Shown here: positions 1 to 29,934 of the stretch, one piece after another
Layout: the number at the start of each line of letters is the position of its first letter
How positions within the stretch are numbered: position 1 is the stretch's first letter
Assembly (NCBI GenBank): GCA_002844335.1
Contig: CP019156.1
Coordinates: 62,001 to 126,000, forward strand
Direction: 5' to 3'
DNA: 64,000 nt
DNA from: Haloarcula taiwanensis
Lineage (GTDB): Archaea; Halobacteriota; Halobacteria; Halobacteriales; Haloarculaceae
Program-made: the position numbers and the translations under genes
The notes under the pieces: model-generated
What the model saw: the letters and a program-made list of their open reading frames with translations, nothing else
What the model was told of the DNA's origin: nothing
Databases searched by the model: none

Positions 1-786
1 GCGATCCCCGACGGGAATCGGACAGTTCCCAGCTGAGTGGCACACTAATTTGCGACTACACTATGATGGGAAAACAAGGCACATTGTACCTATTGGGTTT
101 CAGACACAAAGCTCCGGACATGATGGTGTGCTCGCCGACCGGTGAGCGACAAGGTGTGCGCCACGAGGGGCCGAAGCGAGCGAGGGTCGGGCGTGGGTCT
201 GCCAGCACTGGCTCAACTCGAGTGTGGTCGTGATCGGCGTGGCCCTGGACGGCGGTGGCCGCCGACGTGCTTGGGCAGTGGACTCACATGATGTTCGGTG
301 AGGCTGGTTCGTCGTGTGCAGTCCTGATCGGACTCCAAGAGATGAGACAATACCTATCTGTTCTCCAATAGGTTTGAGTGCAGGTGGGCTGAACGGATTC
401 GTACCCCTGTTTGTGTTGGGTCTATCGACCCGCTCTCCCAATGTTAGGTTGCCTATGCATTTCTCGCAAAAATCGCTCTCAGAACGCCCCGCAAAGCACG
501 GCAAGTTAAAGGACCAATTATTCTGTGAATCACACCCGCCACGTATTGCGATTTTGTACGAATCAGTCACTTGGCTAATAGATTCAGATAGGAGCAAAAC
601 CGGTTCCGTCTGGCGATTTCACCCAGAATTAGTTAGCTGGAGAGATTTTACTGGATATCTGACAATGGCTCTATTGAGGGGCTACAGCCAGAGGACTCTA
701 TCAGTCAACAACCAAAGGGAGATCAAGAGATTATCCGCAAAAGTGTAGAATTTCTTAGATGCTATCGTTACTCTGTAGAGAAGCAG
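1..786. other. Stretch without a confident gene
   Basis: No reading frame here is convincing. A 165-codon frame on the minus strand (597 to 100) carries a CEKC pair and other cysteines. A 144-codon frame on the plus strand (314-748) overlaps it, so at most one is real. Bases 140-300 are GC-rich and read in one plus frame as a short protein-like segment with no start and a nearby stop, which may be a gene relic. The minus operon ends at 787, so part of this stretch is its downstream region. I see no clear terminator. Confidence 0.3.
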
Positions 787-2991
787 TCACATGAACCCAG
801 CCGGGTCGTGCCCCCTCTCTTCTGACTCTGTTTTGTCTTGCTCATCAGTCTCAGTAGCGTCTGATTCTGAGGCCGATTCAGCATCTCCTTTCTCAGCGGC
901 TTCCGTCTCATCAGTGGTGGGGTTCGGTGACTCGTCAGAGGAGAAGTCACCGCTGTTGTCGTCGGACTGCTGGTCGTGATCGCCACCGTCGTACTCACAT
1001 TCTTCATCTGATACATCTGGGTGGTCTGTATCCGGTGACGTGACGGCAGTGTTTGCTGTTGTCTGGTCGAGTGGGTCGCTCGACTCGTCGTCGCCCACCC
1101 CATCTGTCGCGTCGGCAGTCGGCTCGACTTCAGGGTCACGATCCGGGCCACTCTCTCTGGACTCATCATCTTCGGTCTCACCAAGTGACCCATAGAGCAC
1201 ATCATCGAGTCGGGCCCGAGTGAACGAGAACCAGCTGTCACTCTCTATGTCGGTGTCATCCTCAGAGGATTCCGGTTCTGAACTGCCCGGCGACTCCGCA
1301 CCCTGGGCTGGGAGACTGTCGCGAACATCAGCCAGTTCGTAGGACTGTCCATGAACCCACGTTGTCCGAGAGACGGCAACGCACTCACCGGGCTGGAAGT
1401 CTCGGAGCAGACCAGAGGTGACCGGCGTTTTGTCCTTCTCTTTGTACGTGTCCCGAGCCTGCGTCCGTGGGTTTTCGCCGCGCCCTTGATGGCTCATCGA
1501 CACCATCTCGGACCGGTCATACTGCCGGCTCTCGCCGAGTTCGTCGAGGATGAAGTCCGTCGACTCAGTGTCACCCGGACCGAAGTAAACGCCTTGCGGG
1601 CAGTTGCCGACAATCCCAGAGATCGTACTGTACGTGTTTTTGAGCTGGCCGATTGTTTGCACGCCGACTAGTGCCCGAGCCTTGTGCTTTCGGCCTCGGG
1701 CCGTCAGGTTCGTTACTTGAGTGAGCGCCGGCAGCGCATCAATCTCGTCGAGGATATGGACTGTCGGGTTCGAGGCGTTCATCGCGTAGCGGATCGACCA
1801 GTCTACGAGCAGTTGGTACATCGGCCCGAGCGTCTCCAGTTCCGTCGGATTGGAGTCGATAATTAGGACCCGGCCTTCCGGGTTCTCGATGTACTCTTGC
1901 AGGGAGAACTCCCCGTAGTCTCCGAAGTCACCAGTGAAGACGGGATCGACGTTCTCCTTGATCGTCTGGTAAACGTTCTGTGCGCCTTTCCCCTTGTCAG
2001 GGTCGATGTGACCCGAGTCCAGCCGGTCGAATTCGTCAAGGGCTTTCTTGAGCGCGATGTGGCCCTCGTTGAGCAGCGAGACGATATCGGCGTGACAGAG
2101 AGCATGGCGGCGATTGTTCTTTTGTGCGCTGAGATGGAGGTACATCAGCATCTCTGCGAAAGTCTGTTTGGCGGGCCGATGGAATGGGTCGTGGCCGTCG
2201 GCCTCGCCGAAGATCGCGCCGGCGACCTCACGGAAGTCCGACTCTGAATCGGCGTCCTTGAACAGATTCCAGACCACATCGCTGTCTTCGTGGCGGATGC
2301 GCTGAACCTCAAAGCCCAGCTCCGAATAGAACTCTTGGAAGTCCTCGCCAGTATCGTGAGCGATGACCGCAGTATCGCTGTAATACGGGAACTGGTAGGC
2401 CAGTAGTTTCATCATCGACGTCTTGCCCGACCCAGTCTCGCCCACGACGGCTGTAGAGACATCTTGGTCGAGCGTGAACGGCATCTCGGCCTCTTCGTGT
2501 TCGTGAGAGACTTCTTCGAGCGGGACGACAGACTCCCCGTCGTCGTGGTCCCACTGGTTCATCGCGAGTATTTCCGGCGATGTCCGGCGGAGTAGTTCCC
2601 CGGAGAACACGATACCGATTGAGATGGCATATAGGATCACCGTGGTCGAGTACGAGACCATCGGCAGCGATAGCCCGGGCACGGTGAAGTCAGCAAACAG
2701 TGTCCCGACTGAGACGGCAGCTAGAACGTGTGCGAACGGGAACAACAGCACTGCGCTGGGAGTCTGGACAAGCACGTCGTAGAAGAACGCCGTGCTGATG
2801 AGTCCAAAGCCGAGGTAAATGTAGCGCCACGCCCAGAACCGCTTCGGGAGAACCTTGTCGCTGTCGACGATCATCGGCGGGAACAACAGCATGAATCCGG
2901 CCCAGACGAACCCGACGACGTTGTCGTACTTGAGACTATTCGGAACCTCTCCGGAGCGTTGTCCTGGTGGCGCAGAGGAACTAGAACTCAC
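787..2991 (-). CDS. VirD4/TraD-type coupling ATPase
   Basis: Probable type IV coupling protein, which would dock the relaxase-DNA complex at the membrane and pump DNA. Four hydrophobic segments fill the first 135 residues. They are followed by a Walker A motif GETGSGKT near residue 185, a Walker B region HILDEID near 415 and a downstream VGVQTIGQL strand typical of VirD4/FtsK-like ATPases. The last 170 residues are an acidic, Ser/Thr-rich tail, likely disordered. I place the start at GTG 2991, which gives a GTGA overlap with the relaxase stop; GTG codons at 2997 and 3000 are alternatives. It is the last gene of the nine-gene minus operon, directly after the relaxase, as in many bacterial mobilisation regions. 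The ATPase assignment is firm; the coupling role rests on membrane topology and neighbours. Confidence 0.8.
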   Translation of the reverse strand: MSSSSSAPPGQRSGEVPNSLKYDNVVGFVWAGFMLLFPPMIVDSDKVLPKRFWAWRYIYLGFGLISTAFFYDVLVQTPSAVLLFPFAHVLAAVSVGTLFADFTVPGLSLPMVSYSTTVILYAISIGIVFSGELLRRTSPEILAMNQWDHDDGESVVPLEEVSHEHEEAEMPFTLDQDVSTAVVGETGSGKTSMMKLLAYQFPYYSDTAVIAHDTGEDFQEFYSELGFEVQRIRHEDSDVVWNLFKDADSESDFREVAGAIFGEADGHDPFHRPAKQTFAEMLMYLHLSAQKNNRRHALCHADIVSLLNEGHIALKKALDEFDRLDSGHIDPDKGKGAQNVYQTIKENVDPVFTGDFGDYGEFSLQEYIENPEGRVLIIDSNPTELETLGPMYQLLVDWSIRYAMNASNPTVHILDEIDALPALTQVTNLTARGRKHKARALVGVQTIGQLKNTYSTISGIVGNCPQGVYFGPGDTESTDFILDELGESRQYDRSEMVSMSHQGRGENPRTQARDTYKEKDKTPVTSGLLRDFQPGECVAVSRTTWVHGQSYELADVRDSLPAQGAESPGSSEPESSEDDTDIESDSWFSFTRARLDDVLYGSLGETEDDESRESGPDRDPEVEPTADATDGVGDDESSDPLDQTTANTAVTSPDTDHPDVSDEECEYDGGDHDQQSDDNSGDFSSDESPNPTTDETEAAEKGDAESASESDATETDEQDKTESEERGHDPAGFM

Positions 2992-3743
2992 TGCCACCAC
3001 CCAACTTCGCGCTCGGGTTCCTGCTCGCGTTCAAGATCAACTTCGGGTTCGCGTTCAGTTGCCGCCTGTTCTTCGGCCTTCTCTGCAGCACGTTCTGAGA
3101 GTGGCTCAGGTTGGCGCTCCTCGCTCGCTTTCTCAGCCGTGGGTTGTCCGACGTCTTTCTGCTGGCTCTTCTCAGTCGCCCGTTTGAGCGCTTTTTCCGC
3201 TTCGGGGTTCAGCGACAGCTCTGCTTCGTGGTACTGCGCCCGTGCTTCTTGATCCACGACCCGACCGGGATTCTCCGGGGCATCGCGAGGGGCAGCCGTT
3301 GGGTCTCTCGTTCGAGTGGGTTCCTCAAATACGGTCGCTGCTTGTTCGCGCATCTGTCGAATATCTTCCCGATCCATCTCCAACTCCGCACGCTCGCCAG
3401 TCGCCGCAACGTGTGCGTGTGGGAACTCCGTATTCTGGTGGACACCGTATACGTAGTCAGTTGTCGGCTGCCGGGCGAACTCGCGGTTCATAAGTTCCCG
3501 AGTGTTGGCATTCACCTCTTCTGGTGAGTATTCTCCAGTGGGATCTGGCGAGACGATCAGATGCCGCTGAAATCCGAATTCTCGGCTCTTGTCGACGAAC
3601 CGATTTACCTCTGGGTCGGACAGTTCTCGCCCGGCCGGATTCCGTAGGCCAACTGTCGCGCCGGCGTCCTGGTCCCGGTCGCGCCGGATGTAATCAACGA
3701 GATTCCCTGCTCCATTCCGCTGATAATCCGTTGGCAGTATCAT
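2988..3743 (-). CDS. Putative HUH relaxase (MobA/VirD2-like)
   Basis: Likely nicks the transfer origin and stays attached to the DNA through a tyrosine. Visible motifs are an early NLVDYIRRD segment (candidate Tyr 7 or 18), an RHLIVSPDP strand near residue 60, and near 100-115 the run VHQNTEFPHAHV. The last matches relaxase motif III (H-x-D-T-x-H-P-H-x-H) with the two-His HAH core kept, but Asp changed to Asn and one His changed to Phe. The C-terminal half is charged, rich in Glu, Arg, Ala and Gln, and probably helical. At 251 residues it is short for a relaxase. It overlaps the upstream RHH-like gene by ATGA and the coupling ATPase by four bases. Relaxases are rarely recognised in archaea, so the nicking function is inference from motif III and context. 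Confidence 0.65.
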   Translation of the reverse strand: MILPTDYQRNGAGNLVDYIRRDRDQDAGATVGLRNPAGRELSDPEVNRFVDKSREFGFQRHLIVSPDPTGEYSPEEVNANTRELMNREFARQPTTDYVYGVHQNTEFPHAHVAATGERAELEMDREDIRQMREQAATVFEEPTRTRDPTAAPRDAPENPGRVVDQEARAQYHEAELSLNPEAEKALKRATEKSQQKDVGQPTAEKASEERQPEPLSERAAEKAEEQAATEREPEVDLEREQEPEREVGWWQ

Positions 3744-4219
3744 GCACCGTCACCCCCAGCATTAGTCGCCACCGAGGACTCACGACCCTGCTCTCCTGAG
3801 TCTGTATCACTCCCGTTTGTTGTCTCTGTAGCTGGCTCCCGTCCAATGCGGTCGGTCGCAAATTTCATCGCTAATCTGAGGTGTGCATCATCGTGGTCCT
3901 CCTGCAGTAGTTTCCAGATAGCGATGGTGTATGCTGTCCGGACTTTCTGGACTGTCTTCAGTTCCTCCAGCGTCTCGGATTTGAACTCGTCCAGCTCAGC
4001 CGTGATATCACTCCGAATATTCTCCATGACGAGTTCGAGTTGTGTATCAGTCCCGTACCGCTCAAACTGGGTTTCACCAGTCTCGCGGTCAATATACTCT
4101 TCAACGAGACTATGGCCGATATCCGAGATCGTCTTGCCTTCTATTTCAGCCCGCTCTTTGATCCATTCCTTGTTTTCGCTGGTCGTGTATATCTGAAGAA
4201 CTTCATCTCGCTCTGTCAT
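3740..4219 (-). CDS. RHH-like relaxosome accessory protein
   Basis: A 159-residue acidic protein. Its first 50 residues look like a ribbon-helix-helix DNA-binding fold: a short strand (EVLQIYTT), then a helix with IKERAEIEGKTISDIGHSLV. A central coiled coil follows, then a segment TAYTIAIWKLLQED that recurs in the next upstream gene as a related sequence. Position immediately before the relaxase, with ATGA overlap, fits a MobC/TraY-like role in recognising the transfer origin or regulating the operon. The function is inference. Confidence 0.5.
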   Translation of the reverse strand: MTERDEVLQIYTTSENKEWIKERAEIEGKTISDIGHSLVEEYIDRETGETQFERYGTDTQLELVMENIRSDITAELDEFKSETLEELKTVQKVRTAYTIAIWKLLQEDHDDAHLRLAMKFATDRIGREPATETTNGSDTDSGEQGRESSVATNAGGDGA

Positions 4220-4590
4220 CAGTCATCACCTCCGCCAACTTTCTCTACCTGCTCCTGCAGTTTCTCTGGTGCTTCCTCCATTGCGGCAGCCCGAGTATCA
4301 GCATCATACTTACTCGAAATCAACTCCCACAATGCTACAGTGTGACACAGTTCTTGATCTGTGTCGATATCCGTTGCAGCGCTCACTTCGCCAGTGACAC
4401 TATCAGCAAGGTCTTGCAGTTCATCTGCAACCCCCAGTTCGTTAGCACGTTGCTCCTGCAGTTCACGAGATATACGCTGTTCTGCCGCCTTGAGCAAGAA
4501 CTGGGTGACCGTTTCGTCGTTCTTCTCAGCCTGTGTTACAATCTGTTTCTTTCTCTCTGCGCTCATCGAAAATGTGATACTTTCATTCAT
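4219..4590 (-). CDS. Second RHH-like small protein
   Basis: A 123-residue protein. Its N-terminus (SITFSMSAERKKQIVTQAEK) resembles a ribbon-helix-helix repressor or relaxosome protein: a strand of alternating residues followed by two helices. The C-terminal half, with CHTVALWELISSKYDA, aligns by eye with the equivalent part of the gene just downstream, so the two look like diverged paralogues. Stop and start overlap (TGATG) with that gene, and five bases separate it from virB4. It may act as a heteromeric partner in DNA recognition or autoregulation; no direct evidence. Confidence 0.5.
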   Translation of the reverse strand: MNESITFSMSAERKKQIVTQAEKNDETVTQFLLKAAEQRISRELQEQRANELGVADELQDLADSVTGEVSAATDIDTDQELCHTVALWELISSKYDADTRAAAMEEAPEKLQEQVEKVGGGDD

Positions 4591-4595
4591 GTGAA

Positions 4596-7500
4596 TCAGT
4601 CCATGTAGTCAACTGGTGTTGGGTCGCTCTGTTCCTCGATACTACCATCAGCGACAACTGCTTCTGGCTGTGTCTGGTCAAGAGCCACAGACACCACGTC
4701 CACCAACTCGTCTTCGCTGAGTCCGTTGAGGACGTGTTCAGCCTTCTCCGGGGACAATCCACGATTCGCTAGCTCTTGCTCGACTGCTTGTGAATGGACG
4801 AACTCTTCGAAGTCAGCAGCGCGAGAGTCCGCCCCGTGAGCAACAACGTCGAGCGTATCTTCCGCGTCAGCGTCGAGGTCAATGATCTGCTTCTCTTCCC
4901 ACGACGTCTTGATCGTCAGCGGGTAATCGCCATGTTCGTCGACGCGAACCAGCGCTTGCGAGTAGCCCTGTCCGTCGCCCAGTGACTCCTTGCCGGCTTC
5001 GGCGTGCTGGATGTAGGACTGCTGTTCATCCGTCAGTCCAGCGCTTGTTGCGGTTTCATCGCCCAGTTCCGGCTCGCGGTGATGCACCTTGATCGGGCAC
5101 ATTCCCGCGATTTCCTCGGCTGCGCCCTTGTCCTCGAACTCGGAGAGCGTCTGGGACAGCATCACTAGCCGCAGTCCGGCGTGGCGCTGGTGGCGAGCAA
5201 TCTGGTTCAGCGACTCCAGATTTGCGTCGTCGTTGAACAGGTAGTGAGCTTCGTCGATGATGATCTCGACCTTCTGCTGCATATTTTTGGCCTGCTGGTA
5301 CAGCGTCGACAACAGCAACTGCATAATGAACGACTGCTTGCCGAGGCCACTACCCGAGCCTTCGACCTGCTGGAGGTCCAGATAGACGGCCTTGCTGCTG
5401 TCGTCGATCAGCCGCAGGTCCGACTCTTTCGAGAGGTTGCCAAACGTACTCCCCGGCCGGAACGGATGCAGCGCAATCGAGAGTTCGTTTGCGTACTGCT
5501 GGATTTTCTGCTGGGAGGACTCTGTTGTCGCTCCCGGGAACATTTCCGGCTCTTCCTGGAGGCGGTCGACTACCTCCAAGAAGTCGCTCAGGTCCGGCGA
5601 GTTCTCCGGCGTGTGTGTCGACGGCTCCGCTGGGTCGATATCGGACTCGGAGAATATCTTGTCGATCAGGAACGTGATCAGGCCGCTGTGCATCTCCAGA
5701 TCGACATCCCGCGACTGCAGGAAGTTCTCGATGACCCCGTAGACTTCGTCTTTCTTCGCTGAGACCGGCTGCATATCCGGGGACTGTTCGAGGACATGCT
5801 GAGGCGTCGGATGCATCTCACACGGGTTCAGCGGCGTCTCGCCGCTGATCGTGATCGTCTTTGCATCCAACATCTTCGCGCTGCCGTGCATATCCCCGAC
5901 CGGGTCGATGTAGATCTGCTTGACGTCCGACCGTTTTTTCAGCATCCGCATCGCCCGAGCCTGCGTGCCGTGGGTCTTCCCGCCGCCGGGCATCCCGGTT
6001 ACAAGCTCCGAGTGGCCGGTTTCCAGCGCCCACGGGTCGATCAACAGCGAGGAGTCGTTGTGCCCGTGCAGTCCGTACTCGATGCCGTCCTCCATCCGGA
6101 GGTAGTTCGACGAGAACGGGAACAGCGACCCGAGTGCTTCCCCGGTCATCGAAGAAAGCCGGTTTTGCCCGAGTTCGTTGGCCCCGATGGGCGAGACAGT
6201 CACCAGTCCTGCTTCCTGCCGGCGGGTCGTTCGCTTGACGCCGCAGTTCGAGGGCGAGTCGCGCAGCAGCGTTTCGAGCCGATTCGTTTGCTTCCGGAGG
6301 TCTTCTTCGGTCTCCGCAGTGAGGCGGATGAACGCCCCGACACGGAACAGCGACGTGTGGTTCCGCCGAACCATCTGCCGGATGTACTTCGCTTGGTTGA
6401 CCTCCTGTTCGATATCCTCCGCTTCCAACTCTCCTTTGTCGTTTTGCAGCATCTTCAGCGAGGAGATCCACTCTTTCATGACCGACACTGCTGTATCAGC
6501 GTCGTATGGGTCGATGTGGATTGAGACGTCGACGGCAAGGTCCGTATCCAGCAGTAGTTGCTCTAGCATTCCACTGGTCGGATGCTCGGGATACGTCTCG
6601 ATCCAGAAGCACCGTGTGTACGTCTCTTGGTCGATGAGAGCGTGGTCGGCTTCCCATTCGATATCCGTCGGCGCGACCAGTGACCGATGGTTCTCTCCCG
6701 GTCTATGCAACTGGGAGACGAAGGCGGTCTCGTCGACCTCGTAGTCGGTCCCACCGACGTCGTCGGTGTCCATGCCCTCCGCAGCGTCGTGGGCTGCGGC
6801 ACCCTCGCCGTGCTTGATGAGTTCCCGTGCCGAATACGTCACCGGAGAGACGGAGGCCGCCTCTTCGTACTCCCGCTCGGTCCGGGTTTCACAGGCCCAG
6901 TAGTCCTCGGTCAAGTGCGCCAGCTCATGCGGGCTGACCGACCGACTACGGCACCGGAACATATTGTTGACTGCTCTGTCGACGGTTTCGAGCCGGTCGT
7001 GGAGCTTCTTGGCTTTGAACTCCTCTCGCTCGGCGTCAGTGAGCGTGTCACTGTCGAATCGAGTGAACAGCCGCCCAATGACCGGTATCCCGGTCAGGTA
7101 ATCCGCGATAGAGTCACTGTTCATTTGGAGATCATGGATATCATCGTCAGTCACCCAAACGACGATGTAGTACTTGCGCTGGAGTTCGGTCTCAGTTTCA
7201 ACGTTGCCGCTGTCGTCGGTGTAGCGGTTGACGAACTCCATGAGGACGCCCCGGAAGATCGAATGGCTCTCCGCGTCGGGGTCGTCGAGCCGGTCGACGT
7301 GTGCCTGAATGTGGGACTCGTTGTCGACCTCGGCCGTCGTGACGTGGAGTTTCGCCCGGCCAGTCAGCGATTCAGACAGGCGTGTGAGCGATGTGACGGC
7401 TTTCTCCCATTTCTCGTCGTCCTGCAGCGACATATTGGCGGGCTCGACCTCGACCGCGCCGACGTACGCTCCGTCGACGCGCTCAATGCCGTGAGGCATG

Positions 7501-7853
7501 ACCCGCTCTAGTCGCGTGACCTGCCGGGAATCCTGATTCCCCTGGCCGTGAGTGTACTGCTTCTTTTTGACGAGCCAGAACAGTTTGACCCGCAGCCACT
7601 CAGTGAGCCGATAGTGATCTGGCCGGACTTTGTGCAGGATGTAGAGGAAGACTTCCACGACCGCTGTGAGAGCCAACGTTGGGAAGAACAGCGCCGCTGG
7701 CACGAACGGCATCCCCATCGCGACGAGGAAGCCAAACGGCGGGATGAGGAACAGGATGAGTTCCCCCAGCGTGTAGTCGCCCCAGAAGTTGGTCGAGTCT
7801 CCGAGGGATTCGTGGATGATATTCGTGTCGTATTCTTCTTCTGAGTCAACCAT
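4596..7853 (-). CDS. virB4: VirB4-family conjugation ATPase with N-terminal membrane segment
   Basis: A 1085-residue motor ATPase of the VirB4/TrbE type, which energises assembly of the transfer channel. Two hydrophobic stretches lie at residues 31-75, like a fused VirB3/PrgI-type membrane anchor. A VirB4 N-terminal domain follows, then Walker A (TGMPGGGKT, near 620), Walker B (EIIIDEAHYLF, near 864) and a QTLSEF motif downstream. The length exceeds typical bacterial VirB4 (about 800), through the anchor and an acidic C-terminal tail. It starts within the stop of the VirB6-like gene (TAATG), so the two are translationally coupled. This is the best-supported gene of the transfer module. Confidence 0.85.
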   Translation of the reverse strand: MVDSEEEYDTNIIHESLGDSTNFWGDYTLGELILFLIPPFGFLVAMGMPFVPAALFFPTLALTAVVEVFLYILHKVRPDHYRLTEWLRVKLFWLVKKKQYTHGQGNQDSRQVTRLERVMPHGIERVDGAYVGAVEVEPANMSLQDDEKWEKAVTSLTRLSESLTGRAKLHVTTAEVDNESHIQAHVDRLDDPDAESHSIFRGVLMEFVNRYTDDSGNVETETELQRKYYIVVWVTDDDIHDLQMNSDSIADYLTGIPVIGRLFTRFDSDTLTDAEREEFKAKKLHDRLETVDRAVNNMFRCRSRSVSPHELAHLTEDYWACETRTEREYEEAASVSPVTYSARELIKHGEGAAAHDAAEGMDTDDVGGTDYEVDETAFVSQLHRPGENHRSLVAPTDIEWEADHALIDQETYTRCFWIETYPEHPTSGMLEQLLLDTDLAVDVSIHIDPYDADTAVSVMKEWISSLKMLQNDKGELEAEDIEQEVNQAKYIRQMVRRNHTSLFRVGAFIRLTAETEEDLRKQTNRLETLLRDSPSNCGVKRTTRRQEAGLVTVSPIGANELGQNRLSSMTGEALGSLFPFSSNYLRMEDGIEYGLHGHNDSSLLIDPWALETGHSELVTGMPGGGKTHGTQARAMRMLKKRSDVKQIYIDPVGDMHGSAKMLDAKTITISGETPLNPCEMHPTPQHVLEQSPDMQPVSAKKDEVYGVIENFLQSRDVDLEMHSGLITFLIDKIFSESDIDPAEPSTHTPENSPDLSDFLEVVDRLQEEPEMFPGATTESSQQKIQQYANELSIALHPFRPGSTFGNLSKESDLRLIDDSSKAVYLDLQQVEGSGSGLGKQSFIMQLLLSTLYQQAKNMQQKVEIIIDEAHYLFNDDANLESLNQIARHQRHAGLRLVMLSQTLSEFEDKGAAEEIAGMCPIKVHHREPELGDETATSAGLTDEQQSYIQHAEAGKESLGDGQGYSQALVRVDEHGDYPLTIKTSWEEKQIIDLDADAEDTLDVVAHGADSRAADFEEFVHSQAVEQELANRGLSPEKAEHVLNGLSEDELVDVVSVALDQTQPEAVVADGSIEEQSDPTPVDYMD

Positions 7854-9493
7854 TAGTCGCCATCCTCCTTATGCGGCAGGCCGTCGCGGTACACATCTGG
7901 TCCTAATACATCGTCATCAGTTGCAAACACGTCCTGCAGCGAGTCATACGACTCGGACCCACCAGAGTCGGTATCGGTCCCGTTTTCGTCGGGCTTCCCA
8001 TCCGAGAACGGCGGGTCTGAGTCAGACTCGAACACTCTGGTATCGCCGGAGTTGATCTTCGTCTGGCGTTCGCTAACCGGGTTGTCGTCGCTCTCAGAAT
8101 CGCCGGACGAACCGGACGAACCGGATGAACTACCGTTGGTGAATCGGCTGTTGAGGGGACTTCCACTGGACCCGCTCCCGCCGCCAGAGGGCGGTGAGCC
8201 ACCAGAGCCGTTGCTACCACTGCCGCCGCCAGAAGGCGGAGCGGAACCGCCTGAGCCACCGGAGCCACCGCCGCCGGAGCCACTGTTGCCGCCACCTCCG
8301 GAGCCGTTGGGACTACTGCCGCCACCGGAGCCGGTGGGGCCGCCGCTAGAACTCCTCTTCATGCCAGCGGGGTTAGCTGCCATCTGGCGGTGGACCATCT
8401 GGGCACCCGTGGCAGCACTGCCGACACGCCCTTTTGCAGCGCCTGAGGCAGCTCGAATCGTGCCACCCGTCGCCATTGCTGCCCCGGGGCCACCGACCGC
8501 GCCAGCGCCGGCTGTCGCCGCTGCACCACCAGCCGCCGCACCGATCTTGAGTGGCTTTTTGCCGCCGGCGAGCGCCTGCTCGCTGACTTGGATTGCCACG
8601 CGGCTACTCCGCTGGATGAGGACCTTCTGGGACTTTGCCGCCAAGTACAGCGTCACGAGGCTGATGAACAGGGACAGCTCAGAAGCCAGTCCCCAGTTTG
8701 TCGCTTCAAAGCTCATGCGTATCAGGATTGCAGGCGGGATACCCGCAGCGAGGACTCCGGGGTACGCGCCGGCGACCTGTTTCGCCAGTCCCGAGAAGCG
8801 GTTCAGCGGCCAGACTTCTACTGCCCAGAACGTCGCGACCAGTGGCATCGACAGCGTCAGCAGGAAGACCAGCAGCCATCTGGTGATGAAAATGAACGCC
8901 GCCTTGAGGTAGACATACAGTCCGACAACGATGAGGACGAGGAATATCCCCAGACTGAGATCCGCAATCTGCTGGGCTGAACTGATTAGTGCGGCTGCCT
9001 CCTTGGGGGTGTGTGATCCCTTGTATATTGTTCGGCCAATCGCATCGAAGAACTGCGTCCCCAGCGAGGCTACCGGGAGCCAGAAGAACAGCGAAAGGAA
9101 GGCAACTCCGAGTCGGCGAAGGAGCTTCTTCCGGATAACCGGGTTCATCGACCCGTATCTAAGCCCGATCATCGCCAGAACAGAAAACTGGATGCCGAGC
9201 GCTAACCCAACGATTCCATCGAAGTATATATTCGAGATTAACGCGTCCCACGGAGCATTACTCGCAGACTCAAATGCAATGTCGACAGGGGCTGCTGAAT
9301 TCGGCCCTTCCGGAGAAGGTGTGCCTACCATCGGGTCAATAAGCCACTCAAAGAACCCCTCAAAATACCCAATTATGTCTGTTCTGAGTTGATCAAGGAA
9401 GCCACTGATGCCAGCTGTAATTGCCGACGAGAGTTCTCCAACCACCCTCTCGACAACCTCCTTCACGATTTCCCCAGCAATTCCCGACTGCAT
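7853..9493 (-). CDS. VirB6/TrbL-like polytopic membrane protein
   Basis: A 546-residue protein with an amphipathic N-terminal 60 residues, then about six hydrophobic segments between residues 90 and 310 (for example LSLGIFLVLIVVGLYVYL). An Ala/Gly-rich stretch follows, then a very long Gly/Ser/Pro linker at roughly 375-465 and an acidic hydrophilic tail. Several transmembrane segments followed by a flexible soluble tail is the VirB6/TrbL pattern, and its place before virB4 supports this. It would form part of the inner channel. The Gly/Ser repeat is low complexity and may vary between strains. Confidence 0.65.
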   Translation of the reverse strand: MQSGIAGEIVKEVVERVVGELSSAITAGISGFLDQLRTDIIGYFEGFFEWLIDPMVGTPSPEGPNSAAPVDIAFESASNAPWDALISNIYFDGIVGLALGIQFSVLAMIGLRYGSMNPVIRKKLLRRLGVAFLSLFFWLPVASLGTQFFDAIGRTIYKGSHTPKEAAALISSAQQIADLSLGIFLVLIVVGLYVYLKAAFIFITRWLLVFLLTLSMPLVATFWAVEVWPLNRFSGLAKQVAGAYPGVLAAGIPPAILIRMSFEATNWGLASELSLFISLVTLYLAAKSQKVLIQRSSRVAIQVSEQALAGGKKPLKIGAAAGGAAATAGAGAVGGPGAAMATGGTIRAASGAAKGRVGSAATGAQMVHRQMAANPAGMKRSSSGGPTGSGGGSSPNGSGGGGNSGSGGGGSGGSGGSAPPSGGGSGSNGSGGSPPSGGGSGSSGSPLNSRFTNGSSSGSSGSSGDSESDDNPVSERQTKINSGDTRVFESDSDPPFSDGKPDENGTDTDSGGSESYDSLQDVFATDDDVLGPDVYRDGLPHKEDGD

Positions 9494-9495
9494 TG

Positions 9496-10344
9496 CTACG
9501 TCTCCGTCTCCGTCTCCGTCTTCGTCGGGGTTGTGGTGACTTCCTCTGGCTCACCAACTAGCGACTTTTTGCACCCATCAGTATTGTTATATTTGATAGT
9601 CTGAGCGACTGTAACTGTATCACTCCAGAGGAAGTTAACTGTCAGATGGTGGTTGATCTCAGCTATCTCACCAGCTTCATCAGCTCTTGCACATATTCCT
9701 GGGCCATCCTTGAGGAGAAAATCAAATTTAACGGCAGCAGATTCACCGGGCTCCACTGGTACAAAGCGCTCACTTCTCGTTTCACCATCTAGAAGCGTCT
9801 GTGATGCTGCGTCTGTGCGTTGGCCCACGTTCCGCACAACCATCGCCAAGCTACCATCGACGAAGTCTGGATGTTCAGTCCCAGGGATAACCTCCTCAAA
9901 CTCAAACGTGGTGCCCAGTTCGAGTGGGAGTTCAGTTTCGACGTCATCCCCACGGAGATAGAGCGTGTGCTGGCCCCGAGGCAGCGGTTCGTACGAGTCC
10001 TCTCCCTCTGTTAGCGAGAGGCGTGTCCGGGTCTCGCCAGGACTGAAGTAGTCACTGGAGAACTCCCGACCGGACTCTGTGATGATGCTAACCGATGACG
10101 GCTCGATCTCATCAGTCACAGCCACTTCCAGAGCCAATTGGCGGCCGTTCTCGACAATCTCAATCGACGTCTCTTCGATGTAGTCGGACTGTTCTTCTGG
10201 CGGGCCGCCGCCTCCGTCGCCTCCGTCACTGCTATCAGACAGCCCGCCACTGCATCCTGCAAGCGCGGCAAGACTCCCGCTAAGGAGTCCAAGCACTGTT
10301 CTGCGGTCGATACTGCTGTTTCGTGGTATATCTTGCTTTGTCAT
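9496..10344 (-). CDS. Tat-exported lipoprotein of the transfer operon
   Basis: A 282-residue secreted protein. The N-terminus has a twin-arginine signal with a lipobox (DRRTVLGLLSG, then LAALAGC near residue 31), followed by an acidic Gly/Ser spacer, typical of haloarchaeal lipoproteins. The rest is predicted beta-rich, with strands such as LALEVAVTDEIEPSSVSI. It ends in a Thr/Glu repeat tail. It overlaps the surface-glycoprotein gene by ATGA and is two bases from the VirB6-like gene, so it is probably an external part of the transfer apparatus. I do not recognise a family for the mature domain. Confidence 0.65.
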   Translation of the reverse strand: MTKQDIPRNSSIDRRTVLGLLSGSLAALAGCSGGLSDSSDGGDGGGGPPEEQSDYIEETSIEIVENGRQLALEVAVTDEIEPSSVSIITESGREFSSDYFSPGETRTRLSLTEGEDSYEPLPRGQHTLYLRGDDVETELPLELGTTFEFEEVIPGTEHPDFVDGSLAMVVRNVGQRTDAASQTLLDGETRSERFVPVEPGESAAVKFDFLLKDGPGICARADEAGEIAEINHHLTVNFLWSDTVTVAQTIKYNNTDGCKKSLVGEPEEVTTTPTKTETETET

Positions 10345-12413
10345 GGATTATACCAACCAACGAATTTGCCTCTCGTCCAGACGTCGTAGCCATACAGCGC
10401 CAGCACAGCCGGCAACACCGTCAGGAGCGTCACTACAGCGAGGTCGATGAACTCCGCAAGGTCTGGGAGATCGAGTTCATACGCGACCCGCTCTTGGGTG
10501 TCTCGTACCGGGACAGCACGCCCTTGCTCCCACCAGATCTGAGCCGGGCGATACGTGACTATCGCCGAGGAGACTTCGCCCTGGTCGACGGTGACCGTAA
10601 TCTCATCATCGCCAGCGAGTGACCGTTCGACCCGGGACTGCCCCGTTGCGACAGTGACGTTCCCTGCCACAATCGGGAAGCCAGCCGTCGGTTCGACCCG
10701 GACCAGCAGGTCCGTCGAGTTGTCAGTCGAGTTGACGACCTCGGAGGTGATATTGACCTCGCGAATTGGCGTCGGGTTCGTCGAGTCCGCTGGCTGTTCG
10801 ATGCTGTTCCCACGGACGAGTCCGTTGATCTCGAAGTTCTCCGTCCGGAGTTGTTCCGCACTCCGAATCGTGAACCGATCTGCCGTCGTGAACGTCTCCG
10901 AACGGTTGATCCGAATCTCCGGCGGGAGCGTCGTCTTGGTGGTCGCGTTCGCCGTCGTGTTCCCCGTCGTGTTCACAGTCGCATTTGTCGGATACGTCGC
11001 TTCGAGTGAGGGCACGAACCGCCAGCCGTCGGCACTCTCGTTTTGGACGCGGTTGACCGTGACTGCTGGGCCTTCCGTGGTTCGGACAGCGTGGGTTTCG
11101 AGCGGTCGTACTGGCGTCGTCGTGTTCTCCGACCAGTTTTCCCAGCCGGGCGGTGAGCGAGTGTAGAACCGCCACTTGCTCTGGACTTCGTATCCCCCAT
11201 CGAACTGGACGCTCTGCCAGCTGCCGGGGATTACAGTCCCGATGCGATAGTCGTCGGTCGTGGCCCCTCTGCCGTTGGGGACGACACCGGGTTCGACGAC
11301 CATCTCCCGCTCGGAGAGGTTTTGCACCTGGACCGTCCGCGAGTCCGTGACCGTCAGTTCGTACTCGTCAATCTCGTCATCGCCAATCTCCGAGAGATTC
11401 GTCGAGATTGTCGTGACCAACCGGAGTTCCGTGGTCCCGTTGATCTCCGTGTAGTTGAGGGTGGGCTGGGCGGCAGTGCTGTTGTCCATCGCAGTGCCGT
11501 TGGCGTACAGCGTCGTGTTCGTCGACGTGTTCACTACTCGGAAGTCGTCCTCGAAGAACTCCGAGATGTACACCCGGTAGTCGTGGATGGCACGAACGGT
11601 TCCGTTCGGACGGACCAGACGCTCCGTACCTCCCTCTCGATGGACGACCGTCGACGGCTCGACGCTGAAGAACGCGACGTAGGCGTCACGAATCCAGATG
11701 CCAGAGCGAGTATCCGTGACGTTCACTGGGTAGGAGGCGTCCTCGATTCCAGTCCGGAACGAGTCGTGTTCGGGCCGGTTCCACAGCGTTGTGTTCGATG
11801 GCTCGCGAGAAACCATATCTCCCGTGCAAGAGGGGAGGACGGCCAGCGTGCCGTTCTCAGCCCCGGCCCGGTCAGCTCGTGTGAGGTTCGGATGGTCAGG
11901 GTCGCCAGACCACAGCGCACGGAAGAACGTGTGGTTGTGGTTGTAGGACCGGTTCGGGGGCACAACGCCTGCTGTCGCGTTGTCCCCGACAGAGGCATTG
12001 GCCGGCGGGTCCGAGGCGTTCTCGTAGCACGAGACTTTCGCGCTGAGGTTCTGCCGTCTCGATCCCACCTCGGCGGATCTGTTTGCTTCTGTTTGGTTCG
12101 CTGCTGGCCCTCGATCAACGGACTCGTTGCCCTCGGTTCCGTTGGCTGCCGTCCCGTTGTCTGCTGGCCTTCGATCAATAGACTCGTTGTTGTCAGTGCG
12201 ATTCGTCTGTGTTCCCTCGCTGTTGGAGCCACTCGGCGCGGTGGCGTTCTGTTGGAGTATCCCCACGCCACCGTGGCTCGCGTCGGTGTAGGAGTGTGCC
12301 GTCCCCCGCTCAATCTGAGCTGGGTTGCCACCAGCGGACGCCGGCCCCGCAGCTGCGGCTGTCGAGAGCAGCGAGCAAAGGGCCGCGATCATCAGCAGTG
12401 AGCGGAGTCCCAT
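10341..12413 (-). CDS. Large secreted glycoprotein-like protein, C-terminal membrane anchor
   Basis: A 690-residue protein with a Sec-type signal (MGLRSLLMIAALCSLL, then an Ala run). Residues 50-200 are packed with NxS/T sequons, suggesting heavy N-glycosylation. An extended beta-rich ectodomain follows, then one C-terminal hydrophobic helix (VVTLLTVLPAVLALYGYDV) with a basic end. The topology is outside with a single anchor. Its place between the pilin-like and lipoprotein genes suggests a cell-surface adhesin or sheath of the transfer apparatus. The stretch around residues 75-120 repeats short DNGTAANGTE-like units. The family is not recognised. Confidence 0.65.
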   Translation of the reverse strand: MGLRSLLMIAALCSLLSTAAAAGPASAGGNPAQIERGTAHSYTDASHGGVGILQQNATAPSGSNSEGTQTNRTDNNESIDRRPADNGTAANGTEGNESVDRGPAANQTEANRSAEVGSRRQNLSAKVSCYENASDPPANASVGDNATAGVVPPNRSYNHNHTFFRALWSGDPDHPNLTRADRAGAENGTLAVLPSCTGDMVSREPSNTTLWNRPEHDSFRTGIEDASYPVNVTDTRSGIWIRDAYVAFFSVEPSTVVHREGGTERLVRPNGTVRAIHDYRVYISEFFEDDFRVVNTSTNTTLYANGTAMDNSTAAQPTLNYTEINGTTELRLVTTISTNLSEIGDDEIDEYELTVTDSRTVQVQNLSEREMVVEPGVVPNGRGATTDDYRIGTVIPGSWQSVQFDGGYEVQSKWRFYTRSPPGWENWSENTTTPVRPLETHAVRTTEGPAVTVNRVQNESADGWRFVPSLEATYPTNATVNTTGNTTANATTKTTLPPEIRINRSETFTTADRFTIRSAEQLRTENFEINGLVRGNSIEQPADSTNPTPIREVNITSEVVNSTDNSTDLLVRVEPTAGFPIVAGNVTVATGQSRVERSLAGDDEITVTVDQGEVSSAIVTYRPAQIWWEQGRAVPVRDTQERVAYELDLPDLAEFIDLAVVTLLTVLPAVLALYGYDVWTRGKFVGWYNP

Positions 12414-12420
12414 CGTGTGC

Positions 12421-12876
12421 TTAGAATGGGGTCACGCAGTCCGAGAAGCCGAAGCCGACGTTGTCCCCGAACTTCGTGATGAGTTCCGGAGCCACGATTG
12501 CCAGGACGACGACACCGAGGCCGACCAGCGAGAGGATAAGGTCCCGGCGGGCCTCGTTTTGCTGGTTCGGGTTGCCAGAGGCCCGCATATACGACAGGCC
12601 ACTGCGACCGACGAACACCATCGTTGCTGGCAGGCCAAGACCAGCCAGTGCGCCGAAGACGACGTCAACGCCGTCCTCGACAGCAGTGTCACAGTAGATG
12701 TTCCCGACGTCGGTCTGGCCCATCGCCGAGCCAGCAAATAGCGTGAGGATCAGCAGTAACTGCGTTGTCTGTCGCACGCCGGGCGTGAGCCACGCGTCAG
12801 CAAACCGCCGCTTCGCGTGGGTGTAGAGTGTTGGTTGTGTGTTCGATGCGTTCGATGCGTTGGTTTGAGTTGACAT
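12421..12876 (-). CDS. VirB2/TrbC-like small membrane protein (candidate pilin)
   Basis: A 151-residue protein. After a 35-residue hydrophilic start comes a hydrophobic segment ending in a signal-peptidase-like site (LFAGSAMGQT), then two further hydrophobic segments separated by a short polar hairpin. This is the layout of conjugative pilins of the VirB2/TrbC type. Two cysteines (YCDTA and SDCVTP) flank the mature part. I chose ATG 12876 over GTG 12921. It is the first gene of the operon, seven bases from the next. The assignment rests on topology and position, not sequence identity. Confidence 0.5.
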   Translation of the reverse strand: MSTQTNASNASNTQPTLYTHAKRRFADAWLTPGVRQTTQLLLILTLFAGSAMGQTDVGNIYCDTAVEDGVDVVFGALAGLGLPATMVFVGRSGLSYMRASGNPNQQNEARRDLILSLVGLGVVVLAIVAPELITKFGDNVGFGFSDCVTPF

Positions 12877-13046
12877 GGATGTCTCTGGTTCTGGTTTCTT
12901 GCTTGCCCACCGATGCCCCACCGGTAATCCGCTACCGATTCTGTGTTAGATTTCTAATACTATTGTTGAACCCTATCTTGGATTTGGCAGCAGATTATGA
13001 CATTGGAGTTAACTAAAAACTTGTGAGACAAACAAACTCTATCTCT

Positions 13047-13692: not shown

Positions 13693-14922
13693 TCAGTCAA
13701 GATATTCTTCGATTGACCGGTTCGTCGTGATGAGATCAATAGCGTCGCCAAGTCGAGAGTCTTCGGAGAGGATATCCAGTGTCATCCCGAGGTCGGAGCC
13801 AAGTTCGAAAACATAGTGAGGGCCACCACGATTGCCGGTTTGTTTCTTTGTCGCGTTGACAACCCCCATCAGATCAAGTTCAAGCAGGTGGTCGCGGACG
13901 CTCCGTTGGGTTCGAATGTCCGCCTTGATCTCCGTAGCGATATCCTTGTATCGAGCGTAGAGTTCGGTCGTCTTCGCTGGGTTCTGGCTCTCTACCTCTA
14001 GTGCGACGACAGCTGTTAGCGACAGTTGGTCCTGCATCGTCATCTCGCGAATTCCCTTTTCGATGTTTTTTCGATCAATGCGTTCCTGTGCCGTCCTCAC
14101 ATGCTCTTCGGTGACGACATCACTCCCGGTGTTCGACGCCAGTTCACCGGCTTTGTACAGGTATCGCAGTGCCTGCCTCGCCGAACCCTTATCTTGTGCT
14201 GCATGCGCGGCACAGAGCGGAATGACGTCACCCTCTAAAACACCCTCTTTGAATGCCTGATCGGCGCGCCGCTCTAAGATAGATCGCAGTTGATTCGCGT
14301 CATACGGTGCGAAGTGAATTTCCTCGTCAAACAGGGTATCCTTGACTTTTGGGGAGAGATTGTCACGGAATTTAAAATTATTCGAAATGCCGATAACACT
14401 CAGATGCATATCATCGGGGATATTACCGTTGGACTTAGCGCGAGGGATTGAGTACAATATTTCATCTGACGTCCCGATATTGTCGATTTCGTCCAATACG
14501 ATGATAACCGTTCCACCAATGTCAGTCACGGCATCGAAGAATGCATCGGTGATTTTACTCATTGGATGCCCGTTCAGATTCTCACCAGTGAGACGCTCAA
14601 CAAGATTGATCAATACATGGTATGAGGATGAGTCGCCGGCGCAGTTGTATTGACTTGTCGTGATATTTAGTCCTGCGTCATCGGCAGCTGCAACGAGATC
14701 CTCAAGTTTGTACTCAACACCTGCTGTTTTCCCTTGTCCCGTTTTTCCGAAGAGAAACATATTGTGTGGACCGACACCAGTATTGCGAATCGCAGGTGCG
14801 AGCGCATTATGGATCTGCCCTAATTCTTCATCACGCTCGGGCAGTTCCTCTGGATCCCAATCATCTGTGAGAGGACGTTCATCCTCGAATATCGGAGAAC
14901 CGCGCTCAAACGTCCGTGACAT
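13693..14922 (-). CDS. orc1/cdc6: Orc1/Cdc6 replication initiator
   Basis: A 409-residue AAA+ initiator that should bind the flanking origin boxes and load MCM. Visible features are Walker A (LFGKTGQGKT, near residue 58), Walker B (VIIVLDEIDNIG, near 140), a sensor 1 region (SVIGISNNFKF), the lid helices, and a C-terminal winged helix (DHLLELDLMGVVNATKK). The length is normal for haloarchaeal Orc paralogues. It starts at ATG 14922, about 90 bases from box 3, so autoregulation by origin binding is likely. As the only orc gene next to these boxes it is the best candidate initiator of this replicon. Confidence 0.92.
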   Translation of the reverse strand: MSRTFERGSPIFEDERPLTDDWDPEELPERDEELGQIHNALAPAIRNTGVGPHNMFLFGKTGQGKTAGVEYKLEDLVAAADDAGLNITTSQYNCAGDSSSYHVLINLVERLTGENLNGHPMSKITDAFFDAVTDIGGTVIIVLDEIDNIGTSDEILYSIPRAKSNGNIPDDMHLSVIGISNNFKFRDNLSPKVKDTLFDEEIHFAPYDANQLRSILERRADQAFKEGVLEGDVIPLCAAHAAQDKGSARQALRYLYKAGELASNTGSDVVTEEHVRTAQERIDRKNIEKGIREMTMQDQLSLTAVVALEVESQNPAKTTELYARYKDIATEIKADIRTQRSVRDHLLELDLMGVVNATKKQTGNRGGPHYVFELGSDLGMTLDILSEDSRLGDAIDLITTNRSIEEYLD

Positions 14923-16040: not shown

Positions 16041-17714
16041 TCAGTTCTCTCCGGGCCCCCACCCGGCTGATCGCACGTCAGGCAGGTCCAACGGATCAAC
16101 ATTAGGGTCGTCCAGGTCACCGGCTCGGGCGGCCCCGAGGAGCGCTTCGGTCCGGCCCGGGAGTCCGTCGTGATCGTGCTTGGCCAAAGTAACGAGCGTT
16201 TTGGCTGCCCAGTAGCGGGTTTTTTGCGTGTTCCTATAGTCGGTGTCTACACTCTCGACCAGCGCCGTGACATCAGCCGCGGAGAACTCGGCCCCGGCGT
16301 CAGCAGCCCGTGCCAACGCCCGTCCGAGGTAGTACCGGTGACAGGAGTGGACCGTCAGGTTCGGGACGATATCGGCGACCAGTTCTGGATGATCGGCCGC
16401 GAGGTCGTCGAGGACATGCTGAACGGTCCGAAGGTCAAGACCGCCGGTGAGCGCCGGTAGCGCCGGTTTGACTGCTCGCGGGTTGGCCGCCGCGACGTCG
16501 GCGACGAGGCCGTCGCCAAGTCGGTTGTTGTTCGGCAGTTCGTCGGCGGCCGCGAGTTCGAACAATTCCTGAAGCTGGTCGGCGACGAACCCGGGATGGT
16601 CAGCCGCCAGTACGACCAACGGGTCGGTATCGCGTTCCTCAAACGGTCGCTCGGCGGCCAGTTCAGCGACTTTCTCGACGACCGGATCAAAGGACCCGCT
16701 GCCATTACGTTCGAGGCGTGCCAGTGCGTCCGCGGCTGGGGTATACGTCGAGGCAGGCCGCGGCCCTGTCGCCGTACCGAGAGTCGACAGTAGCGTCTTG
16801 GCCGCCGACCCAGCTGTTGCCGGTCTCGACAGTGCCACATCGACCAGCAACCTCATCGACTGGTTGCCTGTCACCGGATACTGCCCGTCGTGGAGGGCAT
16901 CGACTACGTCGTCATCGATGTCATCGAGGCTGATCGCACCTGCCTCCAGCAGCGCAGCCAGCAGGTTGATCACTTGTTCCCGAAACCACCCTCTTTCGCG
17001 GTCGAACCCTCCAAGTATCGAATCGAGATGCTCGGTGACGAGATGTGGCCGGTCATCGACGAGTTGCGTCAACACTTCGATAGCGGCGGTTGCAGGACGC
17101 TGTGCGTGGCGTGCGTTGCCGATTACTGTCGCCGGATCGGCCAAGCCATCGGCAAGCTGCTCGACAGCATGCGGTGGGTCGGGGTGAGTCTTGACCAGTT
17201 CGACACCGACCGGATCTTCGATCTGTCGGTGGAGCAGTAGCCCCGCTACTCGTTTGCGGATGGCCGGTTCCGGATCGGTGAAGCGTTCAAGAAGGCGCTC
17301 AGCCAGCCATGGCGCTGGTCTGGCGGGCGAGCGCTCCTCGTTGCCAAACGAAGCAGCAATCTGTCCACCGAGATAATCGGGGTTGATGGCGGCCTGGCGG
17401 ACACACCAGTCCTTGTCGTCGATCCGGTCGAAGAGGTGCCGGTACAGTGTGTCCGAATCGACATCAGCCTCCATGTCCTCGGGGTAGGCGGCCGCGAACC
17501 GGACGACCATCGCGGCTGCGACTCTGACGCCAGGATCGGGGTCGTCGAGTAGCGCGACCATCCGGTCGATAACTGTGCCCGGCAGCGTGTGCCCCTCGAT
17601 GAGTCCTTCTTGATGCCGTTTGACGATTCGCGTTGCGAGGTCACGTCGGTCGGCGGGACTGTCTACAGCGTCGAGTTGGGCTGCGAGCGCTTCCAGCGAG
17701 TCCTCAGACGACAC
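16041..17714 (-). CDS. HEAT-repeat protein
   Basis: A 557-residue helical-repeat protein. Repeats such as ALLDDPDPGVRVAAAMVVRF and DRIDDKDWCVRQAAINPDYL occur across the length, typical of HEAT/PBS-lyase-like scaffolds that bind proteins. No catalytic motif is seen. I place the start at GTG 17714, which overlaps the stop of the upstream 123-residue gene by 11 bases; starts further upstream would lie inside that gene in another frame. Coupling to that small gene suggests the two products act together, perhaps as an effector with its immunity or adaptor protein. Function unknown. Confidence 0.7.
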   Translation of the reverse strand: MSSEDSLEALAAQLDAVDSPADRRDLATRIVKRHQEGLIEGHTLPGTVIDRMVALLDDPDPGVRVAAAMVVRFAAAYPEDMEADVDSDTLYRHLFDRIDDKDWCVRQAAINPDYLGGQIAASFGNEERSPARPAPWLAERLLERFTDPEPAIRKRVAGLLLHRQIEDPVGVELVKTHPDPPHAVEQLADGLADPATVIGNARHAQRPATAAIEVLTQLVDDRPHLVTEHLDSILGGFDRERGWFREQVINLLAALLEAGAISLDDIDDDVVDALHDGQYPVTGNQSMRLLVDVALSRPATAGSAAKTLLSTLGTATGPRPASTYTPAADALARLERNGSGSFDPVVEKVAELAAERPFEERDTDPLVVLAADHPGFVADQLQELFELAAADELPNNNRLGDGLVADVAAANPRAVKPALPALTGGLDLRTVQHVLDDLAADHPELVADIVPNLTVHSCHRYYLGRALARAADAGAEFSAADVTALVESVDTDYRNTQKTRYWAAKTLVTLAKHDHDGLPGRTEALLGAARAGDLDDPNVDPLDLPDVRSAGWGPGEN

Positions 17715-18075
17715 CGTGGATCCCGTACCTAGCCGCGAAGTAGTCGAAGTGCTCGGCCGGATCGTGGCGGAACTCGTGACGCAACTCTTCGATACGCCGG
17801 AGTTTGCCATCCTCGCGCTCGTAGTAGCGACCGACTGTCGAACCAATCCCGCCATCGTGTTCGACCACGAATACAGCCCGCTGGAGGTGGTCGCCGACCG
17901 ATTCGATCAGGCGTTCGATGTTCGACGCCGGTGGGCCGAACCCCGCGAACTGTAGCGTGCCGTCGGTCGTGTCGCGCCCGTCTATCGCTCCTTGCCACTC
18001 CGAGAACGTTTCGACGACAGTTGCTTGGTCGCCATCCACCGCGGGTTCAACCGCAATCCAGCTCTCGTGTCCCAT
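17704..18075 (-). CDS. Hypothetical 123-residue partner of the HEAT protein
   Basis: A small alpha/beta-looking protein from ATG 18075 (MGHESWIAVEP). It contains a strand-rich centre (RAVFVVEHDGGIGSTVGRYY) and a charged C-terminal helix. An in-frame ATG at 18126 exists, but the 18075 start has the more usual beginning. It overlaps the HEAT gene, so the two are co-translated. Not recognised. Confidence 0.55.
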   Translation of the reverse strand: MGHESWIAVEPAVDGDQATVVETFSEWQGAIDGRDTTDGTLQFAGFGPPASNIERLIESVGDHLQRAVFVVEHDGGIGSTVGRYYEREDGKLRRIEELRHEFRHDPAEHFDYFAARYGIHGVV

Positions 18076-19163: not shown

Positions 19164-19184
19164 CAACAGCCGTCGCGGCTGTTG
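19164..19184. promoter_or_regulatory. 9-bp hairpin before mcm
   Basis: CAACAGCCG and CGGCTGTTG are separated by TCG. The repeat abuts the palindrome at 19183, 24-44 bases upstream of the mcm ATG. It may be an RNA hairpin or operator. Confidence 0.4.
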
Positions 19185-19197: not shown

Positions 19198-19207
19198 GAA
19201 ATCCACG

Positions 19208-29859: not shown

Positions 29860-29934
29860 CGCTTCAGTTGAATATCTGCTTATTAATCCGTAGAGACATT
29901 AGTTTATTAATCCTCTAATATTGAATCATATATA

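Follow-up and report, generated by a model that had tools for sequence, protein, structure and literature searches.

A predicted bacterial-type relaxosome and origin of transfer in a transfer operon of a Haloarcula plasmid

Can a haloarchaeal plasmid conjugate as bacterial plasmids do, as a single DNA strand led by a relaxase? The question is raised by a nine-gene transfer operon in a 64,000-nucleotide stretch of Haloarcula taiwanensis (the window), which lies on contig C3 (129,893 bp) of a 3.72-Mb genome in four contigs and has Haloarcula plasmids as its closest relatives. A preliminary description of the window had pointed to a relaxase motif in the operon and had remarked that archaeal transfer systems are usually described without a relaxase. 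Indeed, according to papers of 2023 and December 2025, archaeal conjugative plasmids have no known relaxase (PMC9905601, PMC12857230), and another mechanism has been suggested for archaea. However, archaeal relaxases are not wholly unrecorded. A 2011 survey counted very few of them and found one conjugative archaeal plasmid, pNG500 of Haloarcula marismortui (PMC3158045); a paper from 2019 refers to an archaeal relaxase, calling it a rare trait (PMC6333295); and NCBI labels some members of the family studied here 'relaxase'. Our priority is therefore partial, since pNG500, a close relative, was already counted as conjugative in 2011 (PMC3158045). By computation we found relaxase homology, a relaxase fold, conserved catalytic residues, a constant set of genes, and a conserved DNA site that accompanies the cassette. 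With high probability, the plasmid is conjugative, the operon is its transfer region, and the mechanism resembles that of bacterial conjugation.

The gene on which the question turns is the following:

2988-3743, minus strand: HUH relaxase, with a nuclease domain (residues 1-147), a charged tail (residues 148-251), and the residues Tyr18, His102, His109 and His111.

That this gene encodes a relaxase is well supported. Its product contains the relaxase motif III, VHQNTEFPHAHV, that was first noticed there. It scores 27.3 bits against PF03432 (MobA/VirD2-like), above the curated cut-off of 24.6, and 15 of 16 haloarchaeal homologues match the same family (E <= 0.1, best E 2.2e-10). When a profile of 18 archaeal domains was compared by hhalign with six bacterial MobP1-like relaxases, the whole domain aligned (probability 98.3%, E 1.6e-14, 118 columns), with both the N-terminal tyrosine (NLVDYIRRD with KNTLDYISHD) and motif III (HQNTEFPHAHV with HDNTEKPHVHA) in register; an unrelated control reached a probability of 0.1%. 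Among 28 non-redundant homologues, Tyr18 and His102 are invariant (28/28 each), His109 is kept in 23 and replaced by Asp in five, and His111 is kept in 26 and replaced by Gln in two. The tyrosine stands before the HUH motif, which is the order of relaxases and unlike that of rolling-circle Reps, and no tyrosine column occurs past residue 111 in these homologues. The domain is under strong purifying selection, with a ratio of nonsynonymous to synonymous substitution rates (dN/dS) of 0.07-0.11.

The fold agrees with the profiles, so that both checks proposed in the preliminary description, a relaxase profile search and an HUH-fold comparison, came out in favor of a relaxase. The full-length model is poor (predicted local distance difference test, pLDDT, 43.5), whereas the domain alone could be modelled usably (pLDDT 70.1, predicted template-modelling score 0.65). 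The first Foldseek match of the domain model is MobA of R1162 (E 0.045, probability 0.96). After realignment, relaxases of three families (MobA, MobM, F TraI) take the first eight places, with Z scores of 8.5-7.6 over 130-137 residues and root-mean-square deviations of 3.6-4.6; a circularly permuted Rep follows at Z 5.9, and then unrelated chains from 5.5. Because Z scores below about 8 can reflect a common arrangement, we place weight on all of the relaxase tests jointly. Searches of PDB sequences with phmmer and profiles found no relaxase, plain sequence search being too insensitive; among solved structures, relaxases emerged through fold comparison alone. From its sequence, the protein is a distant PF03432 member outside the curated MobP1 family (22.1 bits against NF041450, cut-off 200), in a system that appears to work like MOBP; the MobL profile is matched by 6 of the 16 archaeal homologues (best E 8.1e-5).

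The relaxase gene adjoins the other genes of a predicted relaxosome and its coupling protein. The VirD4-type ATPase had been recognised before; the two ribbon-helix-helix (RHH) genes had been missed, as had a site resembling an origin of transfer (oriT).

4219-4590, minus strand: RHH accessory protein A (relaxosome), matching the plasmid mobilization protein MobA model NF041264 (E 9e-4).
3740-4219, minus strand: RHH accessory protein B (relaxosome), family A2, NikA-like; adjoins the relaxase gene.
787-3000, minus strand (longest frame): VirD4/TrwB-type coupling protein, matching PF10412 (E 7e-30) and PF12696 (E 7.8e-11), with three hydrophobic segments.

The NikA-like profile is matched by 14 of the 16 members of family A2 (best E 4.2e-6) and RHH_1 by four; the window's own protein B matches weakly (E 0.05). 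Equivalents of protein A in related operons match the profile of protein B. Across 33 haloarchaeal loci, an RHH gene precedes the relaxase gene in every case and a coupling-protein gene follows it in 32. On Haloarcula conjugative plasmids, this triad is joined by a second RHH gene and by genes of a type IV secretion system (T4SS), while at annotated loci of Halalkalicoccus, Halomarina, Haladaptatus, Halorussus, Halobacterium and some Haloarcula plasmids the triad mostly stands alone. In one locus (L074:3054-5123, G072:C33), the relaxase profile and the coupling-protein profile both match a single 690-amino-acid frame, which is apparently a fusion of the two proteins.

A conserved DNA site accompanies these genes. 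In the window, the predicted oriT occupies 619-500 (minus strand) and lies 277 bp beyond the coupling-protein gene:

606-619, minus strand: oriT repeat 1, AAATCGCCAGACGG, an AAATCGC repeat.
541-554, minus strand: oriT repeat 2, AAATCGCAATACGT, an AAATCGC repeat that begins 44 bp ahead of the nic motif.
500-510, minus strand: predicted nic site, TTTAACTTG/CC, with core TTTAACTTGCC; cleavage is expected at the slash, between 502 and 501, a point derived from the MOBP consensus (PMC3772185).

The pattern TTTWWCYTGCC was first read from DNA ahead of stand-alone cassettes, and its sole exact match in the window is 510-500 on the minus strand. In Haloarcula conjugative plasmids the motif lies about 280-350 bp past the coupling-protein gene (757 in one) in a conserved orientation; in stand-alone cassettes it lies just ahead of the RHH gene, about 50 to 210 bp from the start codon. 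A position weight matrix built from 12 sites and applied to the 33 loci placed its best sense-strand match at the expected location in 27 of them, including 18 of 23 held-out loci; of these 18, one (L067) nearly duplicates a training locus. Matches at the expected location scored 15-22, and the next-best sense-strand match usually scored 4-12. A second element, AAATCGCMAGACGG, begins 44 or 45 bp upstream of the nic motif in otherwise divergent loci, although the spacing is 55 bp in one Haloarcula subgroup and a few subtypes have a different upstream block; it occurs twice in the window, at 619-606 and 554-541. The combined bipartite pattern has one match in the window and none in 100 shuffles. 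In its strict form it has 15 matches in 292 genomes and none when reversed, and 14 of the 15 adjoin a relaxase or coupling-protein gene. A conserved site and accessory-protein repeats are thus linked to relaxase genes, as in MOBP-type origins. Because the site, on one and the same strand, precedes the operon in one class of loci and follows it in the other, it fits an origin better than a promoter or a terminator, and we regard 619-500 as likely to be an oriT.

The fifteenth strict match (L122:1201-1255, G229:C15) is a good oriT-like sequence on an 11-kb contig without relaxase or coupling-protein genes, among transposase-fragment-like, helicase-like and large methyltransferase-like genes; the contig is incomplete, and it is possibly an element mobilised in trans. 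Three loci of Halobacterium type (L007, L065, L068) carry another oriT subtype, TTTTARCCTGCC after a GTGCCAGCAGG block, 1.2-1.9 kb past the coupling-protein gene; in L068 this subtype includes a perfect inverted repeat of 11 bp. As a general feature, a hairpin at nic was tested and rejected (22 loci, mean stem 5.05 compared with 4.33 in shuffles); some subtypes do have clear hairpins, of 8 bp in L016 and 11 bp in L068.

The remaining five genes would supply the transfer apparatus:

12421-12921, minus strand: VirB2-like pilin, first gene of the operon; likely start ATG 12876, 151 amino acids, two hydrophobic segments.
10341-12413, minus strand: exported surface protein, with an N-terminal signal-like segment (5-23) and a C-terminal membrane segment (649-667).
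9496-10344, minus strand: putative lipoprotein, judged from its RR...LAGC start.
7853-9493, minus strand: VirB6-like polytopic membrane protein, with six hydrophobic segments and the same position in relatives.
4596-7853, minus strand: VirB4 ATPase, matching NF045971 (CD1110 VirB4-like, E 1.8e-41), NF045975 (E 3.1e-32) and TIGR00929 (E 9.1e-13).

The operon runs from 12921 to 787 on the minus strand. Its open-reading-frame coordinates bear out the tight packing first described, with all genes overlapping or at most 8 bases apart (in operon order 7, -4, 2, -1, 5, -1, -4 and -13 bases, negative values being overlaps), and homologues favor the originally chosen start at 12876 within the first frame. 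The VirB4 assignment also held, with the NF045971 match lying under that model's own cut-off. The pilin is 98.7% identical to a pHH126 protein annotated as pilin; its matches to NF045849 (E 3.7e-6) and to PF18895 (E 3.1e-5) each fall below the model's cut-off. Family searches gave no match for the VirB6-like protein, so its label rests on position and topology; nor did they for the two proposed surface proteins, which look from their sequences like a lipoprotein (9496-10344) and an anchored surface protein (10341-12413, position kept in pHH126). Among the mating-pair formation components, VirB4 and the pilin have family matches, and the others are assigned from topology and position only. Together, relaxase, coupling protein, VirB4 and mating-pair formation genes all lie in one element, the composition of a conjugative element.

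Conjugation as single-stranded DNA is the best explanation of these sequence features, and it is strengthened by the conserved candidate oriT and the constant RHH-relaxase-coupling protein cassette. The two RHH proteins would bind the oriT repeats (619-500, minus strand) and load the small HUH relaxase; in bacterial pLS20, two RHH accessory proteins are essential for conjugation (PMC5675868). Using Tyr18 and a histidine-held metal ion, the relaxase would nick TTTAACTTG/CC and remain joined to the 5' end. The VirD4-type coupling protein would then pass the relaxase-bound single strand to a T4SS comprising VirB4, the VirB6-like protein, the VirB2-like pilin and the two exported proteins. On this reading, nicking, strand transfer, a pilus and mating would all be expected of this plasmid.

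Covariation among 18 Haloarcula operons bears on this scheme. Given VirB4, oriT distance tracks the distance of each RHH protein (partial r 0.72 and 0.76) and that of the relaxase nuclease domain (0.64); it does not follow that of the relaxase tail (0.13), although the tail is physically nearer to oriT, and it is only weakly related to VirB4 (0.21). Physical linkage may account for part of this covariation, but it does not account for the contrast between domain and tail. Compared with their pHH126 counterparts, the window's RHH proteins have 56% and 48% identity, whereas VirB4 reaches 97% and the pilin 99%. Such covariation, together with divergent RHH proteins, is the pattern expected of relaxosome specificity.

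Several observations weigh against this account. At 27.3 bits, the window protein's own match to PF03432 is a modest one; the domain model has medium confidence, and its Foldseek E value is 0.045. In five of the 23 held-out loci the motif is missing from its expected position. The bacterial MOBP nick sequence is (C/T)ATCCTG(C/T) (PMC3772185), and the archaeal cores do not match it exactly: relatives are one base off (ATCTTG/C, AACCTG/C), and the window's AACTTG/C is two bases from ATCCTG. No inverted repeat lies next to the window's nic site, where the longest stem is 4, not above shuffles. Finally, the coupling protein (0.81) and the stretches flanking oriT also correlate with oriT distance, and the Haloarcula conjugative loci, being close relatives, are not independent.

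Three other readings were considered. In the first, which we reject as unlikely, the conserved DNA is a promoter or operator through which the RHH proteins regulate their own genes, and the true oriT lies elsewhere. RHH proteins are often regulators, the site stands directly ahead of the RHH gene in stand-alone cassettes, and the window's nic site has no adjoining hairpin. However, in conjugative plasmids the motif keeps its strand but sits some 300 bp beyond the last gene, a position from which it cannot serve the operon as promoter; its distance from the start codon in stand-alone cassettes varies, unlike that of a TATA box; and its invariant core resembles the MOBP nick sequence (PMC3772185). 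In the second, to which we give slightly less credence still, the transfer system has decayed or been repurposed, for instance as a secretion device, and no longer moves DNA. A literature search, with preprints and most subscription papers outside it, found no haloarchaeal plasmid transfer via such a T4SS, and MOB-suite types most relatives as non-mobilizable. Against decay, each of the nine genes has an open frame and evolves under purifying selection (dN/dS 0.03-0.26 relative to pHH126), the catalytic residues are retained, and the mobilization-only cassette described below fits recent spread. The last, that the HUH protein is a rolling-circle replication initiator, the AAATCGC/TTTATCTTGCC site its double-strand origin and the transfer genes coincidental neighbors, is very improbable and likewise rejected: HUH nucleases do act in both replication initiation and transfer, and two homologues also match the Rep family PF23343 (best E 4.8e-4), but the invariant tyrosine ahead of the HUH motif with no tyrosine column after it is the relaxase order, all of the top eight structural hits are relaxases, with the Rep hit being a circularly permuted construct, 32 of the 33 loci have a coupling-protein gene after the HUH gene, and the window has its own Orc1/Cdc6 gene (13693-14922).

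If the operon is a conjugative transfer region, the same cassette and oriT without an adjacent VirB4 would render smaller plasmids mobilizable. Some stand-alone triads lie on plasmids of 16.7 and 21 kb, and on one Halalkalicoccus plasmid a transfer-complex gene lies close to the triad. By analogy, the stand-alone triad resembles bacterial mobilizable plasmids, whose accessory and relaxase genes also adjoin. The relaxase-coupling protein DNA of the mobilization-only cassette is 91-96% identical among three genera whose rpoB genes are 85-86% identical, which fits recent horizontal spread, with the caveat that rpoB is itself conserved. The family is carried by 23 of 292 genomes and 8 of 77 genera in one class sample, and close relatives also occur in Haloferax, Haloarchaeobius and Halobellus. 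A class-wide PF03432 search of 194 Halobacteria genomes yielded no second relaxase family, a phylum-wide sample of 393 genomes gave four matches, all within the window's own order, and viral contigs scanned with two alignments held no relatives. Taken together, we favor, with less assurance than for the operon itself, the broader view that haloarchaea have a complete bacterial-type relaxosome with an oriT family of their own, and that a large class of haloarchaeal plasmids, at present mostly typed as non-mobilizable, spreads between genera as single strands through the T4SS of conjugative plasmids.

Individual cassette-bearing plasmids show further features. The 16.7-kb plasmid of Halomarina sp. 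BND7 (L012, NZ_CP100460.1) combines the triad with an annotated terminase large subunit and a phage minor head protein and is possibly a mobilizable phage-plasmid. A 55-kb Halomarina plasmid record (L014, NZ_CP119995.1) consists of about three tandem 16.35-kb units with the triad in each and may be an assembly concatemer. On the 21-kb plasmid of Haladaptatus halobius (L005, NZ_CP085343.1), the RHH and relaxase genes occur in two identical copies about 10.7 kb apart, with a full-length coupling-protein gene after just one of them.

Around the operon, a Mrr-type restriction endonuclease gene (PF04471, E 5e-27) lies just outside the window start (G000:C3:60368-61732), less than 1 kb from the predicted oriT, in the flank that would be the first to reach the recipient. 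In pHH126, an OB-fold (SOSS-B) gene stands beside oriT; a Pfam scan of genes found in the corresponding stretch of the window's plasmid (C3:52067-61732) detected no single-stranded-DNA-binding leading-region gene. The window also contains a defence-like cluster at 25996-35839 (a PLD/SNF2 helicase, 25996-29859; a candidate defence gene, PDC-S11, 31179-32210; an Eco57I type IIG restriction-methylase, 32237-35839), an MCM helicase gene (19184-21253, PF00493, E 2.6e-78) in addition to the plasmid-borne Orc1/Cdc6 gene (13693-14922), and a gene for a 604-amino-acid HEAT-repeat protein (16041-17855).

Since one archaeal class has a relaxase, accessory proteins, a coupling protein, a T4SS and a predicted oriT, single-strand conjugation becomes directly testable in Haloarcula. 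The system also suggests that plasmid typing tools miss archaeal mobility; the short oriT sequence could be used for typing and perhaps for building mobilizable haloarchaeal vectors.

It is useful to compare this system with those already known. The nearest is that of its own relatives: the relaxase of pNG500 is 87% identical to the window's, and pHH126 of Har. hispanica has the same nine-gene order. In the database records consulted the relaxase is named hypothetical, and the papers found describe no oriT or accessory proteins. Our literature search, which covered few subscription papers and no preprints, likewise found no description of an archaeal oriT, of the RHH-relaxase-coupling protein cassette, or of mobilizable cassettes that stand alone in haloarchaea. 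Among other archaea, Sulfolobus pNOB8-type and Thermococcus pT33-3 plasmids share VirB4 and VirD4-type ATPases with the window, and the Ced and Ted systems share archaeal DNA transfer, but all of these are reported without a recognisable relaxase (PMC9905601, PMC12857230). The pLS20 MOBL relaxosome of Bacillus subtilis has, like the window, two RHH auxiliary proteins encoded ahead of the relaxase (PMC5675868), whereas its oriT lies upstream of the two auxiliary genes and that of the window beyond the coupling-protein gene. Finally, the bacterial MOBP systems of Proteobacteria plasmids (MobP1/TaxC/Ddp2) share a colinear nuclease domain, the motif I tyrosine, the motif III HUH, and an accessory gene directly ahead of the relaxase gene; the archaeal protein differs in its short domain (about 147 amino acids) and its charged tail.

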